A stretch of 64,000 nucleotides of DNA from Pelomonas sp. Root1217. GTDB taxonomy: Bacteria > Pseudomonadota > Gammaproteobacteria > Burkholderiales > Burkholderiaceae_C. The stretch's first letter is position 1; each line of letters starts with the position of its first letter. The stretch spans positions 127,515 to 191,514 of the forward strand of contig NZ_LMDC01000027.1 in the NCBI RefSeq assembly GCF_001425705.1, written 5' to 3'. Made by a program: the position numbers and the translations under genes. The notes under the pieces were generated by a model. That model made no database searches. It had not been told where the DNA came from and saw nothing but the letters and a program-made list of their open reading frames with translations. Below are positions 42,199-51,881 of this stretch, piece by piece.

Positions 42199-42207
42199 GC
42201 GTCGCAT

Positions 42208-42553
42208 TGTCCGACAGCCTCCAACAGGGTTGCGGGGCGCGCGGCATCCACCGCATGACCGGCGCGATCGCGACGCCTGCTCGGACATTGCTGGCTCACC
42301 GCGGCTCGGCGCCGTCAATCTCTGAGTAAGCCGCGCTTGGCTGGCATGACGCGGGGTGCCCGATAGGGGGCTGCGCTTAGGGGGTGGTGGCGCGGCCGTC
42401 AGTCGACACGTGGCGGGATCAGATCCCGCGCAGCGGGTCCAAATGATCGGCAGTTCGCGACCCGGTGCAGCCGCAGGCCCAAGCGTCGTCGACGTCAGCA
42501 AGGTGCCCGAAGCGGACGTCGGCACAGGCCTACCAAGCTTCCCTAAAGCTGCC
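42208..42553. other. Non-coding gap between thyA and the cassette array
   Basis: 346 bp with no gene I can support. It contains a perfect 17-bp palindrome GCGGGATC-A-GATCCCGC (42413-42429) next to a CCCGCGCAGCGGG hairpin. It should hold the thyA promoter. No further attC site was recognised in it, so it marks the downstream end of the array. Confidence 0.6.
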
Positions 42554-42610
42554 GCTCAACGTTGGCGCTCAGCGGGCGGAGAAGCCGTCCGCTGCAGCAA
42601 ATGGTTAAGT
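42554..42610 (-). other. attC site A (57 bp), end of cassette 1
   Basis: Ends are GCTCAAC (42554-42560) and GTTAAGT (42604-42610). The arms GCGGGCGG and CCGTCCGC pair around AGAAG. The stop codon of cassette ORF 1 lies inside it, so its last 14 codons are attC-derived. Confidence 0.88.
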
Positions 42611-43149
42611 CGACTGCTCGATCCCGGTTGGTTCTGAAAGAAGAACACGAGGTCGCGGACCGTCTTGACCTTGCCGAAGTACGGGTTGCCGCCACTCTCG
42701 TCAATGGATATCCCGGTACGCGCTTCGACTTCTTGTGCGAGGTCCATGTCCAAGTCGTCGTCATCGAGCAATAGGTCTTCCTTCAGCCGGTCGTCCGCAC
42801 GCACCGGAAACGCCGGATGAATGTGCTTGAGATGCCCTTGCAACTGCTCGTACACCGCGCGAATGATCCACGTGTTTACTGCACGCGTGTCGAAGTCCTC
42901 GGCGAACTCGCAAATCGATTGGCCGTCGCGTTTCGACGCGAGCGTTAGCAGTTTTCTTGCTTCGCGCTGACTCTGCTGTCGCGCAAGCAAGATGAGCACG
43001 GTCAGCGTACTCGCCGCGATGACAAATGCCGCAGGTTTAGCGATAGCGGAGTACACGCCTGATGCCGAGATGCACGCGATCAACAGCCAGCCGGCGAAGG
43101 GCATCGGCTGACGCGAGAAGCGAGGCATGTGACGGGAGGCGACGCGCAT
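42556..43149 (-). CDS. Cassette 1 ORF: membrane-anchored, acyl-carrier-like protein
   Basis: 197 residues from the ATG at 43149, 8 bp after the cassette core. Two membrane helices (MPFAGWLLIACISASGVYS and KPAAFVIAASTLTVLILLA) are followed by a cytoplasmic domain. The part LKEDLLLDDDDLDMDLAQEV, then TGISIDESGG and VKTVRDLVFFFQNQ, resembles the helix II-IV region of acyl carrier or DUF1493-like proteins. Aspartates stand where the phosphopantetheine serine would be, so it is unlikely to be a working carrier. The final LLQRTASPPAERQR is translated attC. The function is unknown. Confidence 0.7.
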   Translation of the reverse strand: MRVASRHMPRFSRQPMPFAGWLLIACISASGVYSAIAKPAAFVIAASTLTVLILLARQQSQREARKLLTLASKRDGQSICEFAEDFDTRAVNTWIIRAVYEQLQGHLKHIHPAFPVRADDRLKEDLLLDDDDLDMDLAQEVEARTGISIDESGGNPYFGKVKTVRDLVFFFQNQPGSSSRLNHLLQRTASPPAERQR

Positions 43150-43157
43150 GGGGTGCG

Positions 43158-43214
43158 ACTTAAGGTTAGCGCTCAGCGGGCAGCGAAGCCGTCCGCTGCA
43201 GCAAAGGGTTAGAC
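43158..43214 (-). other. attC site B (57 bp), core altered
   Basis: Ends are ACTTAAG (43158-43164) and GTTAGAC (43208-43214), around GCGGGCAGCG and CCGTCCGC arms. On the minus strand the core reads CTTAAGT instead of GTTAAGT. The R'' box of cassette 1 (ACTTAAC in site A) predicts GTTAAGT, so one G-to-C change at the cleavage-adjacent base is inferred. Confidence 0.85.
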
Positions 43215-43242
43215 CGCAAACTGAAGGTGGCCAAGCTCATAC

Positions 43243-43641
43243 TCATTCGTACTTCGGTGAACGCAAGATGCGTCGAACAAAGGGTGCTAGCCCAAGCCAA
43301 AGCATGGAACCAACCGCTGACAAACGGAGCATGTTTGCGAGGCCCTCCAAGGTGAACATGCGCGTTTCCGCGCGCGCTGTCCTTTCATCAAATCCATCCG
43401 CCTTGCAGGTCGCGACGGCTTCACCGCAATAGTTGGCATCGTCAAGCGGCCCATTTTTTGCCAGTGCCACGCAAGTCGGTACCTTGCTGCTTTCCCTTGC
43501 CCAACAATCCCAACGCTCCTGATGTGATCGAACAGCAGCGTCTCCCGCCTGGACGCGCAGCACCTCGCAGAGCAGCGTGGCACTACACAGGCACGCGGCA
43601 ACTATTGCCGATGGCCTTGCGAGATATTTCTTGCGTTGCAC
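43243..43641 (-). CDS. Cassette 2 ORF: membrane protein of unknown function
   Basis: 132 residues from a GTG at 43641 (read MQRKKYLARPSAIVAACLC); no better start is present and the ribosome site is weak. An N-terminal membrane helix (SAIVAACLCSATLLCEVLRV) is followed by a soluble segment with three cysteines (DCWARE, PTCVAL, NYCGEAVATCKADGFDE) that probably faces the periplasm. A C-terminal helix (LRLSAVGSMLWLGLAPFV) and a basic tail follow. No family is recognised. Confidence 0.6.
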   Translation of the reverse strand: MQRKKYLARPSAIVAACLCSATLLCEVLRVQAGDAAVRSHQERWDCWARESSKVPTCVALAKNGPLDDANYCGEAVATCKADGFDERTARAETRMFTLEGLANMLRLSAVGSMLWLGLAPFVRRILRSPKYE

Positions 43642-43666
43642 GAGAGAAATCGGTGTAGTTGGCGCG

Positions 43667-43723
43667 GTCTACCGTCCAAGGTCAGCGGGCGGCGAAGCCG
43701 TCCGCTGCAGCGAAAGGTTAGGC
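43667..43723 (-). other. attC site C (57 bp), core altered
   Basis: Ends are GTCTACC (43667-43673) and GTTAGGC (43717-43723), around AGCGGGCGGCG and CCGTCCGCT arms. The minus-strand core is GGTAGAC where cassette 2's own R'' (GTCTAAC) predicts GTTAGAC, i.e. one T-to-G change within GTT. Confidence 0.85.
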
Positions 43724-44131
43724 ATCTTCGCGCCCGTACACATGGGAAACAAGATATCCGATAAGCAACCCCAGGCACGGGCCGCCGACCCAAATGCCCG
43801 CCACTAGCGGCGACCACGGTCGAGGAAACTGCTCGAATGCAGTGGCGAGCAAGCTGAGTACTGCAAGAAGAATCGGTACGACCATGGAACGGCGCGGCGA
43901 CAGATAGCCGGCAAGCATGCCGGCAACCATTGAACCGAGAAATACGGACCCTTGAATGACATACCAAACCCAGTGACTGGTGTTATCGGGATGCTCGACC
44001 CACTCAACCTTGTCGCCACTAGAAAGCGACAAAAGTCGCATTGCAACAAGCACGACTATGGGGAGAAAAGTCTTGAGCCCAAGTTGCACCAGCCAGCCAA
44101 CTACAACCCCGAGCCAAGCCGAGCGCTTCAT
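43718..44131 (-). CDS. Cassette 3 ORF: four-helix membrane protein
   Basis: 137 residues from the ATG at 44131 (MKRSAWLGVVVGWLVQLGL); a TTG at 44164 would add 11 residues. Four hydrophobic helices are clear: around GWLVQLGLKTFLPIVVLVAM, YVIQGSVFLGSMVAGMLAGY, MVVPILLAVLSLLATAF and AGIWVGGPCLGLLIGYLVS. The TAA stop lies inside the end of attC C. It is a small integral membrane protein of unknown role, as is common among chromosomal integron cassettes. Confidence 0.65.
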   Translation of the reverse strand: MKRSAWLGVVVGWLVQLGLKTFLPIVVLVAMRLLSLSSGDKVEWVEHPDNTSHWVWYVIQGSVFLGSMVAGMLAGYLSPRRSMVVPILLAVLSLLATAFEQFPRPWSPLVAGIWVGGPCLGLLIGYLVSHVYGREDA

Positions 44132-44165
44132 AGAACTTTGCCTATTCGTAGTCCGCCCATGCAAT

Positions 44166-44234
44166 GCCTAACGTCTGAATTCAGCCGACCAGCCAGCGAA
44201 GCTGGCGCAGGTCGGCTGCAATGAATGGTTAGGC
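44166..44234 (-). other. attC site D (69 bp)
   Basis: Both ends are perfect: GCCTAAC (44166-44172) and GTTAGGC (44228-44234). Inside, GCCGACCAGCCAGC and GCTGGCGCAGGTCGGC pair around GAA. On the minus strand the left arm (CCATTCATTGCAGCCGAC) and right arm (GTCGGCTGAATTCAGAC) match the canonical attC layout closely, which fixes the array orientation. Confidence 0.92.
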
Positions 44235-44265
44235 GACAGGTTGCGCGATCCGCATGCGGGGACAT

Positions 44266-45060
44266 TCACGATGGCTCGCCTACGTCGACACCGCCGACTG
44301 CAGGGATCTGACAGCTTGAACGCGCCTCTCGCACGATTGAGAGTTGCAGCGCTCCGTACGAATGATTGCTTGCTGTGTCCGCCGGCCACGAAACACTCAG
44401 CACCACTTTGGCCTCGGCGCAAAACTTGATCTGCGACGGCGTCTTGGTGCACACCATCTCCGGCGTCTGTACTTTTGCACTCCTTGGACTTGCAAACCCA
44501 CAGTAGAAGCCGGAGAGCAACAGCTTCTTGTATGCGCTCTGACCATTAGCAGGAAGCTCCAATGAGCGAATGTAGGCTTGCAACTCTGTCTCGGCTGCCC
44601 CGCGAGCGGCCAAGAATTCGGCGGGCACCTTGCGGGAAGGGCTACAGAAAACCCTGACAGAACGCACCCGAATGTCATCTAGGTGCACCAACAGCTCATC
44701 GCGTGTCGCCCACGGGAGAGGCTGGGCAAATCTTGCTGGGACTGACAGGTCGTCACAATGAGGCCCGAAGCCTGATGGCTGCTTGCGGCAATGCCACATA
44801 GGATCTGCGCCTGGAGCATATTCACCTGCTGGCAATATCCCGCAGCGGAAACCCTCTGCCAGCAATGTGTCAAGCGCGAAAGCCGCGGAACGGCCTTCAA
44901 TCCCGAGTGGTCCAACGTAGTCGCGCTCAACTCGGTCACCGGCGGCTAGGCGATTCGTCACTGCAGGAATCGTCTCTGGCGACGCACTCTGAGGCACTAT
45001 CAATACCGCAAAAAAGATCAGCGCGAGCATTTGACCGCGGCGAATAGTCTCTCGCTTCAC
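44266..45060 (-). CDS. Cassette 4 ORF: exported protein of unknown function
   Basis: 264 residues from a GTG at 45060, 6 bp from the cassette core. The N-terminus is a signal peptide (RRGQMLALIFFAVLIVPQSA, with cleavage near SASPE). The mature protein has seven or more cysteines (FRCGIL, WHCRKQ, HCDDLS, VFCSPS, YCGFAS, VCTKTP, FCAEA), suggesting disulfides in the periplasm or outside. It looks like two related halves: FRCGILPAGEYAPGADPMWHC and FYCGFASPRSAKVQTPEMVC have similar spacing. No known family is recognised. Confidence 0.68.
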   Translation of the reverse strand: MKRETIRRGQMLALIFFAVLIVPQSASPETIPAVTNRLAAGDRVERDYVGPLGIEGRSAAFALDTLLAEGFRCGILPAGEYAPGADPMWHCRKQPSGFGPHCDDLSVPARFAQPLPWATRDELLVHLDDIRVRSVRVFCSPSRKVPAEFLAARGAAETELQAYIRSLELPANGQSAYKKLLLSGFYCGFASPRSAKVQTPEMVCTKTPSQIKFCAEAKVVLSVSWPADTASNHSYGALQLSIVREARSSCQIPAVGGVDVGEPS

Positions 45061-45065
45061 ATGAC

Positions 45066-45194
45066 GCCTAACGTTCGAGTTAACCGGTGCGCGGAGGCAG
45101 GACGCCTTGGCCCGGTTGGCGAAAATGTATCGCGTACCGCCGACCGGGCGAAGGTGGCCTGCCGTAGCGCGTCCGATTGAAAGATGGGTTAGGC
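45066..45194 (-). other. attC site E (129 bp, long type)
   Basis: Perfect ends GCCTAAC (45066-45072) and GTTAGGC (45188-45194) enclose a long imperfect palindrome (e.g. GGACGC with GCGTCC, and CCGGTTGGCG with CGCCGACCGG). At 129 bp it is more than twice the length of the other sites and near the size of Vibrio repeats. Confidence 0.88.
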
Positions 45195-45216
45195 CGCAAC
45201 TCGCCGAGCGGTTGGT

Positions 45217-45729
45217 TCATACGAACTGGATCACAACGCGACTGATCCGGAACCCTTCGCGCAGTCCGGTTAGCTGGTTGAACTTGAAGCACACGATGTA
45301 CTCGGTGTAATCGAAAGCGGCCGAGCCGTCCCTGGGTGACAAGTGCAGCCGAAGAATGAGATCCGCAGAATTCGCTGAGGCCTCCTTGCCAAAGTTCATT
45401 TCGCTGACGGACCAGCTACCTTCTTCTCGGCAGAAGTCCCGGGCGACCTGCTTGGCAATCGCTTCGAATTCATGGAATCGAGTTAGGGAGAAGCGAGCAA
45501 GCTCTAGAACTGCGGTGTCAGGCTGTTCTCGCGTCCCGGGCAGGACAACCACAACAGAGGCGTTGCTGCTCGACTCCCACTCGTCGCCCTTGAAGACAAG
45601 CTCGTTCAGCGCGCTTGCGGTGGGACCCGGGAGTACAGGAACTGTGCCTGGGAAGTACTGCGCCTCAATCTCTTCATCGGAGATCGAATCATCGTCATCG
45701 GAGTGAAGGTCTTTGCGTTGCGGCGCCAT
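45217..45729 (-). CDS. Cassette 5 ORF: soluble protein of unknown function
   Basis: 170 residues from the ATG at 45729 (MAPQRKDLHSDDDDSISDEE), 15 bp after the cassette core. The N-terminus is very acidic; the rest alternates strands and helices (SNASVVVVLPGTRE, FHEFEAIAKQVARDF, ADLILRLHLSPRDG, YTEYIVCFKFNQL, RISRVVIQFV). No signal peptide or membrane helix is seen, so it is probably cytoplasmic. No family is recognised. The open frame continues upstream through attC F, but those codons are attC-derived and unlikely to be used. Confidence 0.7.
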   Translation of the reverse strand: MAPQRKDLHSDDDDSISDEEIEAQYFPGTVPVLPGPTASALNELVFKGDEWESSSNASVVVVLPGTREQPDTAVLELARFSLTRFHEFEAIAKQVARDFCREEGSWSVSEMNFGKEASANSADLILRLHLSPRDGSAAFDYTEYIVCFKFNQLTGLREGFRISRVVIQFV

Positions 45730-45743
45730 TGCGTTCCTCTGCG

Positions 45744-45800
45744 GCCTAACGTGCGAGTTCAGCGGGCGCCGCAGGCGTCCGCTGGAATGACCGGTTATGC
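45744..45800 (-). other. attC site F (57 bp)
   Basis: Ends are GCCTAAC (45744-45750) and GTTATGC (45794-45800), with AGCGGGCGCC and GGCGTCCGCT arms around GCA. The unusual GTTATGC end is matched by the GCATAAC at site G, as expected if both come from one cassette. Confidence 0.9.
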
Positions 45801-46060
45801 CGAGCGCTGTTGGTCGAAGTACCGGTGGCCGCGACACGACGAAGACGCCGAAGTTGAAACCCGTCGCAGGCTGAGGCGAGCAGGCTTGGTGGACTAGCCG
45901 GAAGCGCATTGCAGGCGGAAGCCGATACCGCGCGGCTGGCCACGCGTGACACCGACACGCGCTCGCCCCGACCCGCGGACCGCTCGGCCGCCGACGCGAC
46001 GAGGCCGCCGCGCAAGCAAGGCACAAAGCCCGTGATGGAGTTCAACCTAGCCTGCTGCAT
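45746..46060 (-). CDS. Cassette 6 ORF, start codon inside the attC core; doubtful
   Basis: A 104-codon frame whose ATG (46060) is part of the recombination core GTTATGC and whose TAG lies in the core of site F. The product (MQQARLNSITGFVPCLRGGL and onward) is basic, Arg/Ala/Ser-rich and low in complexity, and its last residues SFQRTPAAPAELAR are attC-derived. It lacks a recognisable ribosome site and may not be expressed. The cassette is only about 260 bp and may carry no gene, as some do. Confidence 0.35.
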   Translation of the reverse strand: MQQARLNSITGFVPCLRGGLVASAAERSAGRGERVSVSRVASRAVSASACNALPASPPSLLASACDGFQLRRLRRVAATGTSTNSARHNRSFQRTPAAPAELAR

Positions 46061-46116
46061 AACGTGGCAGGTGAGCGGCGCCACGCAGTGGCGTCCGTTC
46101 TAGCGACAGGTTCTCT
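46057..46116 (-). other. attC site G (60 bp), degenerate outer end
   Basis: The inner end GCATAAC (46057-46063) is intact; the outer end is GTTCTCT (46110-46116), which departs from GTTRRRY. The internal arms GCGGCGCCACGC and GTGGCGTCCGT pair. It would close a further cassette upstream, whose start I could not find. Confidence 0.7.
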
Positions 46117-46818
46117 GGAGCTAATGCGGGGCATGTCCGAGTGCTGGTTTGCGAACCGCTCTGTGCGCCAAAAAGCCTCGGTAAGGCTGATACGTTCACG
46201 CTGCGTTGCTGGCTCGTCCGCACCAAGCCCGCTTGGGCGAGCGCGCCTGCTACGCAGCGCAAGCTAGCAGTTTTTCGACGCTGTATAAACATACAGTATT
46301 TCGCTATGCTGCTAGGTTTGCTGTAGCAGTAGATCAAGGGAACTACTAGTTTATCCAGCAGGCCATGCTGCTTAACTCCGCCGACTGCTGCTTAACCAGG
46401 TCGATGACATTAACGGTAAGTCGTTGTGCAGTAAAGAGAATTTGCCCGACCCGCCGGAAATCAGCTCCATTAAATTCATGTCGAAAGCGGCATCCATGGC
46501 TGTGACTGTGCCAGCCGCTCAGACCCGGCACAACGGTGGTATTTCCCGGGCGCCAACTGCCAGCGCGAGCCTTGCCGAGCGGCCACACTAGCCGCCATAT
46601 GGCAGCAGGCCACTGGCGACCGCCCTAGCCAACAGCCGACATGCGGGCGGATGGATTTGCAAAAACCGCTGCCATGCTGCCCCCCCGTCGTCGGTCGCGA
46701 GCGTCGGCTTCGGGCACTTTGCTGCCGCCCGCTCTGCGAGGTTGAACGACAGGACCTGGCCGAACAGCGACTTCCATAGGCAACAACGCAATTCCCATTT
46801 CGACCTCAATCGTATGTG
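46117..46818. other. Gene-poor flank between the array and the toxin-antitoxin pair
   Basis: About 700 bp with only short, unconvincing frames. It contains the LexA box (46281-46296). I looked for integron-integrase motifs on both strands, including the plus-strand frame after the LexA box (which stops after six codons), and found none. A minus-strand frame from about 46294 (MFIQRRKTAS and onward) runs into attC G and could be a remnant cassette ORF. This may be the scar of a lost integrase/attI region. Confidence 0.5.
46281..46296. promoter_or_regulatory. LexA (SOS) box
   Basis: CTGTATAAACATACAG fits the CTG-N10-CAG LexA consensus with the AT-rich alternating core, flanked by A/T on the 3' side (CAGTATTT). 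Integron integrase promoters often carry exactly such a box. No SOS gene follows in either direction here; the nearest genes are the cassettes (minus) and vapC on the far side. Confidence 0.72.
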
Positions 46819-47256
46819 TCAGGGCGTGCTGCGCAGCACGACTGTCTTGATCTTCAGCCGCAGTGCATTGCGGCTCAGGACGTCGTCCAGGGTTGCAATC
46901 TGCTTCGCTCCGGAGGCCTCCGCACATGCCAGGTGCAGTGCGTCGCCGGCGCGCAAGGCGCTCGCGGCGTCGAGCACCAACTCGGCCGCTCGATGGAAGT
47001 TGGCAGGCTCGACCGGGAGCAATCGAAGGTCAGCGGCAACCATGCGTTCAAAGCGTGCCCATGCGCCGTGGGCCTGCTGCGCATCGATCACGCCGGTGCG
47101 CTGCTTGATGCCCAAGGCGCTGGCGAATTCTGGAATGCACCAAGCCGCGGCGACGAGTTCGCTCTTCTCGCGCGCATACCAATCGACTGCCGCCGCGCTG
47201 TGCGCCTCATTCAGGAACAGAGGTACGAGTACGCTGGTGTCGACATAGACCACCAT
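46819..47256 (-). CDS. vapC: PIN-domain ribonuclease toxin (VapC type)
   Basis: 145 residues with the PIN-domain acidic residues: YVDTSVLVPLFLNE (D6), the CIPEFASAL glutamate, RAGDALHLACAEA (D about 104) and IATLDDVLSRNA. These coordinate the metal ions for RNA cleavage; VapC toxins usually cut tRNA or rRNA. The start is one base from the upstream antitoxin stop, the classic antitoxin-first order. It is probably an addiction or stress module beside the cassette array. Confidence 0.88.
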   Translation of the reverse strand: MVVYVDTSVLVPLFLNEAHSAAAVDWYAREKSELVAAAWCIPEFASALGIKQRTGVIDAQQAHGAWARFERMVAADLRLLPVEPANFHRAAELVLDAASALRAGDALHLACAEASGAKQIATLDDVLSRNALRLKIKTVVLRSTP

Positions 47257-47257
47257 G

Positions 47258-47503
47258 TCAGTACCGTGCCCCGCTGCGAAGCTCTTCCATCACGGGCTCA
47301 CTCATCGGCATGGAACTGTGGGCCTCGATCAACTCCAGAGCGAACGCCTTGCGATTCCACTGCGCCGGCCGAATCGACAAGCTTCCGTCGACGGTGAGCT
47401 GAACCTCCACGGTGGCCCCTTCACGCAACCCGAGCTGGCGCACGATTTCAGAGGGAATCCGTAGGGCAAGGCTATTGCCCCATTTCGCTACTTGCAGGTC
47501 CAT
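47258..47503 (-). CDS. vapB: AbrB/MazE-fold antitoxin
   Basis: From the ATG at 47503 (MDLQVAKWGNSLALRIPSEIV) the product is 81 aa. The swapped-hairpin AbrB fold is clear in KWGNSLALRIPSEIVRQLGL and GATVEVQLTVDGSLSIRP. The C-terminal tail (about residues 50-81) should wrap round and block the VapC toxin. AbrB-type antitoxins bind their own promoter; inverted repeats overlap the start codon here. Confidence 0.87.
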   Translation of the reverse strand: MDLQVAKWGNSLALRIPSEIVRQLGLREGATVEVQLTVDGSLSIRPAQWNRKAFALELIEAHSSMPMSEPVMEELRSGARY

Positions 47504-47556
47504 GATGTATATCATCAAATGTGTATACATCGTACGCACGAAGTGTTAGATGTCAA
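47503..47556 (-). promoter_or_regulatory. vapBC promoter and autoregulatory operator
   Basis: On the minus strand TTGACA (47551-47556), a 16-bp spacer and TACGAT (47529-47534) form a good sigma-70 promoter. Two palindromes follow: TGTATACA (47522-47529) and TGATG-TATAT-CATCA (47503-47517), the latter touching the vapB start codon. Binding there would block both transcription and translation. Confidence 0.65.
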
Positions 47557-47673
47557 GCCGCCACACCCAGGGATGCCAGACGCGGTATCAACCAACGGCC
47601 AGGGTTGCCCGTCCCTCCCAGAACAGCGTCGCTGCCGGCTTGGATCTTCTCGATGCTGCCGTCCCGGCGGGGT

Positions 47674-50846: not shown

Positions 50847-51881
50847 TCACGGCAACGGCAGGCGCCCTGCGTAGCCGGTCAACTCCAGGTAGCCGGCGCC
50901 GAGTGGCCGTTTTTCGCGATCGAACAACTGGGCGGCACCTTCCCAATAGACGAGACCGCTGCTGTGCCTCGCGTCGATCTCCTGGGCGTCGAAGTACGTG
51001 CTCAGCAGCATCTCGCCGGCGGGGCTCTTCAGCCGCCACTCGACCGGGTAATTCGCGCCCGTGGCGGGGCTCGTCCAGTGCCGCAGCGGTGTCATCTCGA
51101 CCTGCTGGGGCGTGAAGCTGCGGTCGGGTTGGCCGGGGCTGCGCAGGCTGCCGCCGGCCCAGTCCCGGCTGCCGTCCTTGCGGCGCAGCTGGAAGAGGGT
51201 CAGCGCGCGTCCATCATCGAGGTTGATGCCCAGCCAGTCCCAACCCTGCGCCTGGCCCAGCAGGCTGTCGCTCCATTCATGGTCCAGCCAGGCGCGGCCG
51301 GTGAGGCGCTGGCGTTGGCCGTCCAGGGTCAGCATGGCCTCGGTGGCGAGCTGGGGGCGCGAGTAGTAGCGGCTGAACTGCGCGGGATCGGGCCCCTTGC
51401 GGGACAGGCCGGCCTCGCCCTGCAGCAATGGCGCGTCGGGCGTGGACAGGTTCAGCGCCAGCGCGAAGCCCGGGCCGTTGAAGGCGGCGCGATAGCCGTT
51501 GCCGCTGCGCTTGAGCGTCCAGTCGCGCAGCTTGACGTTGCAGTCGCCCATCTCAGCCTGCACCGCGCCGGGCAGGGCGCGCAGCAGGCGCTGGCCGTGG
51601 TGCTGCTTCTTCGCACCGAGGTCGGACAAGGCGACATGGCCGAGCAGCAACTGCCTGGCCGCGAGTCCGCTGGGATGGTCGGCCGCTGCCGGGCCGGGCA
51701 GGCGGAAGAAGGTCAGCTGGTAGCCGAAGCGTGGCGGTGCGCTCCCGCTGTCGCCGAGCAGGCCCGTCAGATACCACCACTCGATGCCCTGGGCCGGGTG
51801 GGCGCCGAAGTCGTGCGGGAAGTTGAGGGCGGCGCGCGCGGGCAGTGGCAGGGCGGCGAGCAACAGGGCGCGGCGCTTCAT
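50847..51881 (-). CDS. AttH-like lipocalin-domain lipoprotein/periplasmic protein
   Basis: 344 residues with a short signal (MKRRALLLAALPLPARA). The AttH/CrtC-type lipocalin-like domain is marked by HPAQGIEWWYLTGLL, GYQLTFFR, GHVALSD, YYSRPQLATEAML and the catalytic-looking AWLDHEWSDSLLG and WDWLGINLDDGRALTLFQLR. It overlaps the FtsX-type permease by four bases, and the ATPase gene also overlaps, so the three form an AttEFGH-like ABC export operon. CrtC carotenoid hydratases share the fold, but no carotenoid genes are near. Confidence 0.87.
   Translation of the reverse strand: MKRRALLLAALPLPARAALNFPHDFGAHPAQGIEWWYLTGLLGDSGSAPPRFGYQLTFFRLPGPAAADHPSGLAARQLLLGHVALSDLGAKKQHHGQRLLRALPGAVQAEMGDCNVKLRDWTLKRSGNGYRAAFNGPGFALALNLSTPDAPLLQGEAGLSRKGPDPAQFSRYYSRPQLATEAMLTLDGQRQRLTGRAWLDHEWSDSLLGQAQGWDWLGINLDDGRALTLFQLRRKDGSRDWAGGSLRSPGQPDRSFTPQQVEMTPLRHWTSPATGANYPVEWRLKSPAGEMLLSTYFDAQEIDARHSSGLVYWEGAAQLFDREKRPLGAGYLELTGYAGRLPLP

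Follow-up and report, generated by a model that had tools for sequence, protein, structure and literature searches.

We analyzed a 64,000-nucleotide stretch of the genome of Pelomonas sp. Root1217 (the window; contig C27, positions 127515-191514), which carries on its minus strand, between positions 42554 and 46561, an array of integron cassettes together with the sequence at the head of this array. The array is very probably what remains of a decayed sedentary chromosomal integron, a platform that lost its integrase gene (intI) and retained its cassettes. A preliminary description of the same DNA had read it as a cluster of attC sites lacking an integrase (CALIN). That description was right in recognizing integron cassettes with no adjacent intI, but it missed an attI site, a relic of the intI promoter region and a seventh cassette. 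The CALIN label thus fits operationally (at least two attC sites, no adjacent intI) but is incomplete: the anatomy is that of an integron without its integrase. Below, genomes, contigs and loci are cited by our G, C and L numbers, and contigs given without a G number are from the genome of the window.

An attI site and a promoter relic at the head of the array

Judged by homology and by its direct repeats, the stretch at the head of the array (46341-46403, minus strand) is an attI site. It contains two direct repeats, GTTAAGCAGCA, at 46386-46396 and 46366-46376, and a terminal GTT. The repeats are nine bases apart, and the pair is unique in the window and absent from 100 shuffled sequences, even with up to three mismatches allowed. 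It adjoins a leader (46404-46561, minus strand), the relic of an intI promoter region, which has no LexA box and is not followed by intI. The whole span from 46341 to 46561 is homologous to the heads of intI-less arrays in two congeners (G004:C80, up to position 46561, and G007:C12), and shorter or partly different homologous spans occur at G004:C18, G001:C15 and G008:C1. All these array heads except G004:C18 share the terminal GTT, and intI remnants are present at G008:C1.

The two parts can be told apart by comparison with integrons that have kept intI. The last 58 bases of the attI stretch are 83-84% identical to the sequence preceding intI in G013:C212 and G001:C197, where the gene has an internal TAA and lacks its C-terminal end, respectively. 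A longer alignment (window positions 46341-46526) takes in the promoter regions of both genes, each of which has a LexA-type box. On this homology we identify attI with 46341-46403 and place the former promoter region of intI at 46404-46526. We found no consensus sigma-70 match near attI that would indicate a cassette promoter, in a kind of scan that does not exclude one.

Seven attC sites

The preliminary description had listed seven attC-type sites, and all seven are present at the places and on the strand that it gave. Numbered from the tail of the array and scored with a covariance model (R1) built from all but site 5, they occupy the following minus-strand positions: 42554-42610 (site 1, the last of the array; 74.0 bits), 43158-43214 (site 2; 69.5 bits), 43667-43723 (site 3; 76.7 bits), 44166-44234 (site 4; 61.7 bits), 45066-45194 (site 5, 129 nucleotides, outside the model), 45744-45800 (site 6; 72.4 bits) and 46057-46116 (site 7; 51.3 bits, with homologous sequence at attC of loci L039 and L177). 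The range of 51.3-76.7 bits for the six model-building sites (filters off) is circular; the best other match in the window under the same setting reaches 16.2 bits. Independent sites were found in the rest of the genome, where R1 recovered 21 more attC with 40.9-78.5 bits, 7 on contig C4 and 14 on contig C17 (C17 contains scaffold gaps whose edges are duplicated, and a few of its sites are probably repeats, so that the distinct number is somewhat lower). The next-best match in the genome has 25.9 bits; 150 of 7640 first-look candidates were scored in this search. We take the seven sites to be genuine attC.

Sites of this type also occur in relatives. R1 matches at E≤0.001 occur in 73 of 120 genomes (that of the window and 119 relatives, with 46 candidates scored per genome), including all 20 genomes of the genus, that of the window among them, and in several congeners these sites adjoin intI in the expected orientation.

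The evidence for site 5 is mixed: with default filters R1 matches it over its full length (34.3 bits, E 8e-6), while with filters off the match is partial (11.2 bits, E 2.7). We accepted it as an attC because of its fold (z-score −3.9 against shuffled sequences) and its exact core pairing. The folds clearly beat most shuffles at sites 4 and 5 (z −4.2 and −3.9), and the fold signal of the remaining five sites is weak (z −0.95 to −1.95).

In a further test, the core at the start of each cassette was compared with the one expected from its own attC. As the preliminary description had reported, the cores agree exactly for cassettes 3-6 and differ by one mismatch each for cassettes 1 and 2. In the window, the GTT is missing from two of seven R' cores (site 2, CTTAAGT; site 3, GGTAGAC), as against 1 of 56 cores elsewhere (Fisher p 0.03); the comparison cores were hand-listed from seven other stretches, with five one-base register shifts corrected and with, for example, L176, L179 and weak or partial matches left out, and the sites are not independent.

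Each cassette ends in an attC, and all have a single orientation. Five open reading frames (ORFs) in one direction might also belong to an ordinary gene block in which palindromes happen to fall between genes, but this explanation does not account for the pairing of the cassette cores. It also fails in the control loci: R1 gave 0 matches at E≤1 (default filters) in 80 homologous loci of named relatives (1,417,206 bases), and tblastn with the five cassette proteins found no match in any of them. We regard its probability as practically negligible.

Content of the cassettes

Cassettes 1 to 5 carry ORFs on the minus strand at 42556-43149 (cassette 1, 197 amino acids, the last of them encoded by attC site 1), 43243-43641 (cassette 2, 132 amino acids, from the ORF list and family search), 43718-44164 (cassette 3, 148 amino acids, membrane-like by eye, with DUF6077 below cut-off), 44266-45060 (cassette 4, 264 amino acids, with an N-terminus that looks signal-like by eye) and 45217-45729 (cassette 5, 170 amino acids). 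Six unrecognized proteins had been claimed for the array. The claim holds for five, for which no family was recognized: all five ORFs stay below cut-off in Pfam and NCBIfam, and cassette 5 has one weak match each in PADLOC (E 0.006) and PHROGs (E 0.065). The sixth is doubtful, and the array has five plausible cassette proteins, not six, since cassette 6 probably encodes none.

Cassette 6 occupies 45751-46063 (minus strand) including its attC, and its body (45801-46063) is apparently non-coding. Copies 87% identical to this body occur on contig C17 and in G008:C1, with an attC directly after each, and a distant match (69-70%) occurs in G245; altogether the body is present in 3 of 299 family genomes, that of the window included. 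Compared with the window, the C17 copy and the G008 copy each have substitutions at 34 of 263 positions, spread evenly over the codon phases, and no gaps. As an RNA the body has a fold z of 0.15 and an unfavorable covariation term. Because the substitutions are even over the three phases, without gaps, and there is no fold signal, we count cassette 6 as non-coding, despite one frame that is open in all three copies.

Whole-genome searches covered the proteins of cassettes 1, 4 and 5 and the DNA of cassette 6, the protein searches in samples of 349 genomes drawn evenly from the family, with four congeners visible in the results besides the genome of the window. Cassettes 4 and 5 were found in that genome only (1 of 349 each), with no relatives. 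The cassette 1 protein has relatives in 12 of 349 genomes, its own included. In G293 (82% identity) and G177 (64%), from two other genera (loci L216 and L217), its gene is flanked by an attC on either side, and in both the protein similarity stops at residue 179, the start of the attC. Of nine loci examined with cassette 1 relatives, three have attC (L216, L217 and L221), and R1 found none within the other six. The recurrence of cassette 1 and cassette 6 content with attC in other arrays is, at the level of sequence, the behavior of cassettes. A search of plasmids gave no copies of cassette 6 DNA or of the cassette 3 and 4 proteins, and for cassette 1 one distant match (40%) in a Pseudoalteromonas replicon. 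A single-sequence AlphaFold model of cassette 1 was uninformative (mean predicted local distance difference test score 40); its C-terminal half may be acyl-carrier-like.

The position of attI defines the seventh cassette, the first in the array (46064-46343, minus strand), which is gene-less. The core test therefore extends to it: its core, GTTCCCT at 46337-46343, was read from the sequence and differs by one mismatch from the GTTCTCT expected from AGAGAAC of site 7. Inside this cassette, 44 bases past the GTT of attI, lies a LexA-box-like palindrome, CTGTATAAACATACAG (46281-46296, strand not assigned), whose 12-base form occurs in 0 of 100 shuffles. This palindrome could mark a putative SOS-controlled promoter cassette. 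We considered it as the box of the intI promoter and ruled this out, since its position within cassette 7 puts it on the cassette side of attI, and the promoter relic (46404-46526) is free of such a box.

Absence of a complete intI

The preliminary description had seen no intI in the window, and our searches bear this out. With 29 IntI queries, tblastn gave chance-like matches only, with best E values of 0.58 and 0.67 at 42-48 kb and of 0.005 over the whole 64-kb window (61 residues, 36%, 50895-51077). The search of the genome for intI that it had proposed yielded 3' fragments but no complete gene. The last 51 positions of TIGR02249 are matched at C29:97-249 and C12:3543-3695, a third, shorter fragment lies at C12:716403-716501, and no TIGR02249 match above cut-off and no complete intI were found in this draft assembly. 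An intI match at E≤1e-60 was obtained in 9 of 19 congeners; no complete intI was found in the draft genomes of G004 and G007.

Two of the 3' fragments abut an element that resembles a recombinase in trio (RIT) element, with three adjacent tyrosine-recombinase-like ORFs (L042 126-3285) followed by the palindrome TATGCCGATATCGGCATA. Directly next to this palindrome stand the conserved HTLRHxFATH codons, in two intI genes and in a further tyrosine-recombinase gene, which we take to be of the IS91 type, and contigs break there; the junctions lie at C12:3300-3700 (L042/L003), C29:1-250 (L002), C2:1-250 (L007) and the end of C14 (L001). The arrangement suggests that the RIT-like element inserts into catalytic-motif codons of other tyrosine recombinases. 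At the same HTLRHxFATH motif, an intI in G012:C2 (L227) carries a short foreign insert. The available text of two earlier reports (PMC3414803, PMC2864759) describes RIT insertions into radC and tnpA and does not mention intI as a target.

Chromosomal setting

The host chromosome belongs to the Roseateles-Pelomonas group, in line with the Burkholderiales origin given in the preliminary description. Its nearest named record, judged by a neighboring protein that we presume to be DUF4337-like, is Pelomonas sp. Root1237 (97%), in a comparison from which very close records may be left out. Similarity of Root1237 to the window ends at 42200 and returns at 47672. The interval between thyA and a lactonase-like gene in Root1237 is about 2 kb long, with regulator-like and reductase-like genes and no attC, and in several other relatives an ATP-binding cassette transporter gene adjoins thyA. 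The G+C content is 56-60% at 42500-45750, compared with 62-70% in the left flank and 61-74% in the right flank; cassette 6 has 65-68%. Beyond the last attC, beside thyA, lies a conserved tail (42463-42553, strand not assigned), which is 85-89% identical at three places in G007, one of them directly after an attC, and whose motif is also found beside the sole attC found in G013:C212.

These data bear on the possibility that an integrase encoded elsewhere put the cassettes at a secondary site beside thyA, where no platform ever existed. The genome does contain further arrays (C17 and C4) and intI fragments at other places, and the 80 loci of named relatives are free of R1 attC, as such an insertion would allow. 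But an attI and a promoter relic, homologous to intI-bearing platforms, stand exactly at the array head, and the tail past the last attC resembles sequence beside attC in G007 and G013. Because insertion at a secondary site would bring neither an attI with a promoter relic nor a tail, we consider this origin very unlikely.

The other arrays form a second, larger cassette set (L039 on C17 and L040, C4:1-2700), with repeated cassettes and a transposase-like ORF (L039 2360-3937). The C17 and C4 cassettes are probably one array broken in assembly, the head and intI of which were not found in the assembly. Next to the array in the window, 46819-47539 holds a gene pair encoding a PIN-domain toxin-like and a MazE/AbrB-type antitoxin-like protein, which has no tblastn match in the 80 loci of named relatives.

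A decay series among relatives

To place the leader among its relatives, we used a sequence model of leader and attI (R2), with 7 candidates scored per genome, so that its counts are lower bounds. R2 finds the leader in at least 20 of 369 family genomes (E≤0.001, that of the window included), and at least 11 of these have a place of at least 57 bits, with up to five places in one genome. Five attI-leader places were counted in the draft genome G402, four in G267 and three each in G340 and G063; these chromosomes may possibly hold several integron platforms or relics each.

Among the 25 places of at least 57 bits, 19 loci were fetched, and at these intI is full or nearly full in 4, partial or fragmentary in 9, absent in 5 (the window included) and undecidable in 1, where the contig starts; the classes rest on the two best IntI segments per locus, and "fragment" may include frameshifted genes. 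A LexA-type box (loosely defined as CTGT-N8-ACAG) is present in all 6 leaders that have a full or nearly full intI. Of the 8 leaders with intI fragments 3 have such a box, and of the 7 without intI only 1. Here the "full" class includes G013 (one stop), G001 (cut end) and the nearly full L264 and L265. The set adds five leaders of the genus from outside the R2 list (G007:C12, G004:C80, G001:C15, G013 and G001:C197) and leaves out L204 (no intI, core unaligned, no LexA box), L254 (contig start), L266 (partial intI), L267 (no core) and the six places of at least 57 bits that lacked a fetched locus. Loss of the LexA box thus tracks loss of intI, as decay after integrase loss predicts. At G001:C15, a tyrosine recombinase between attI and attC was examined as a reversed intI and rejected: it is 33-35% identical to IntI and is followed by a transposase-like ORF, so that an insertion sequence, presumably of the IS91 type, is likelier.

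The same leaders invite another explanation, in which an intI-less unit of attI and cassettes is kept working, or is even spread, by an integrase acting in trans. Leaders without a recognizable intI and without a LexA box occur in several congeners (the window, G004:C80, G004:C18, G007:C12 and G001:C15), in surroundings that look different from one to the next (ORF lists, L172-L174); attI stays conserved, and a genome may have up to five leader places. In the window, moreover, an inverted repeat of 26 nucleotides brackets leader and array. On the other side, simple decay explains the graded loss of intI beside the same leader, no complete intI able to act in trans was found in G004 or G007, two attC cores in the window are broken, and the bracketing repeat is not found at L173, L174, L203 and L204 and has its nearest copies in the same direction at L172. 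Taken together, we judge a working non-autonomous integron here to be quite unlikely. The broader proposal that chromosomes of the Roseateles group carry dispersed non-autonomous integrons, units of attI and cassettes that have lost both intI and its SOS switch and depend on a resident integrase acting in trans, is distinctly doubtful; it would liken them to non-autonomous transposons, which rely on an autonomous relative.

The two arms of the repeat (42493-42518 and 46702-46727) are 88% complementary, and its motif is rare in the genome, with 4 exact 14-mers of which two are this pair. At L172, copies lie on both sides. As terminal inverted repeats of a mobile unit the two arms are a doubtful candidate, since the arrangement did not recur at five further arrays that lack intI or are decayed.

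Proposed history of the array

We infer the following order of events for a decayed integron that once worked with an adjacent intI. In the original state, intI would have lain on the plus strand to the right of about position 46420, under a LexA-controlled promoter, with attI at 46341-46403. IntI would have recombined the attC of cassettes with attI, so that cassettes were captured singly at attI and the array grew leftwards, on the minus strand, to its tail near thyA; a promoter at attI presumably drives, or once drove, transcription of the cassettes. In a later step intI would have been deleted. Decay of the LexA box in its promoter and loss of the GTT from two attC cores would have followed, leaving an array that is frozen unless an integrase acts in trans.

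Several observations weigh against this history. No intI remnant is recognized at the locus, where we infer the adjacent intI from the leader, and there is no clean empty site, the thyA-lactonase interval of Root1237 being occupied by other genes. The genome is a draft of 32 contigs in which the C17 and C4 arrays stand at the ends of contigs, and it may lack the 5' part of an intI. Finally, the conservation of attI and of its flank is alike in all classes of locus (0.82/0.65 with full intI, 0.75/0.64 with fragments, 0.77/0.62 without intI), which also fits use in trans; because attI is conserved above the promoter half in every class, decay cannot be told from use in trans by this measure.

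Relation to known systems and significance

The preliminary description had regarded the array as a candidate for undescribed biology, a claim that does not survive comparison with the literature. In the accessible portion of PMC12444791, repeated, lineage-specific loss or truncation of intI with retention of the arrays is described for Xanthomonas, and in an early survey roughly one third of intI genes were pseudogenes (PMC2426708, as far as its text is available). The degenerate chromosomal integrons of Xanthomonas, as that portion presents them, share with the array in the window the lost or truncated intI, the retained cassettes, the repeated inactivation and the extra arrays at other loci; they differ in genus and in locus (ilvD there, thyA here), and some relatives of the window genome have several leader copies per genome. 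The kind of element is thus already known; what is added here is a genus, an attI type and a graded series. Our literature search, whose full-text coverage is thin for subscription journals, found no integron report for Roseateles, nor for Pelomonas with attC.

The closest counterparts are the integrons G013:C212 and G001:C197 of the same genus, which have the same attI and promoter region, and in G013 the same tail, but differ in keeping most or all of intI and a LexA-type box. The working definition of a CALIN, at least two attC with no intI nearby (from the part of PMC12444791 available), is matched by seven attC, no intI nearby and poorly characterized cassette genes, whereas the array in the window also keeps an attI and a promoter relic, which the definition does not ask for. 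Gene-less cassettes with promoter activity are described for Vibrio superintegrons (PMC11014356, in the available text), and cassettes 6 and 7 resemble them in having no convincing gene; unlike those described there, cassette 7 carries a LexA-like box.

Together, the relatives make a decay series readable, from a nearly full intI with a LexA box through partial deletion and a fragment to no intI at all. That the LexA box tends to disappear together with intI gives an indication of what is kept in the promoter by selection. Arrays labeled CALIN should be checked for an attI before they are called off-site insertions.

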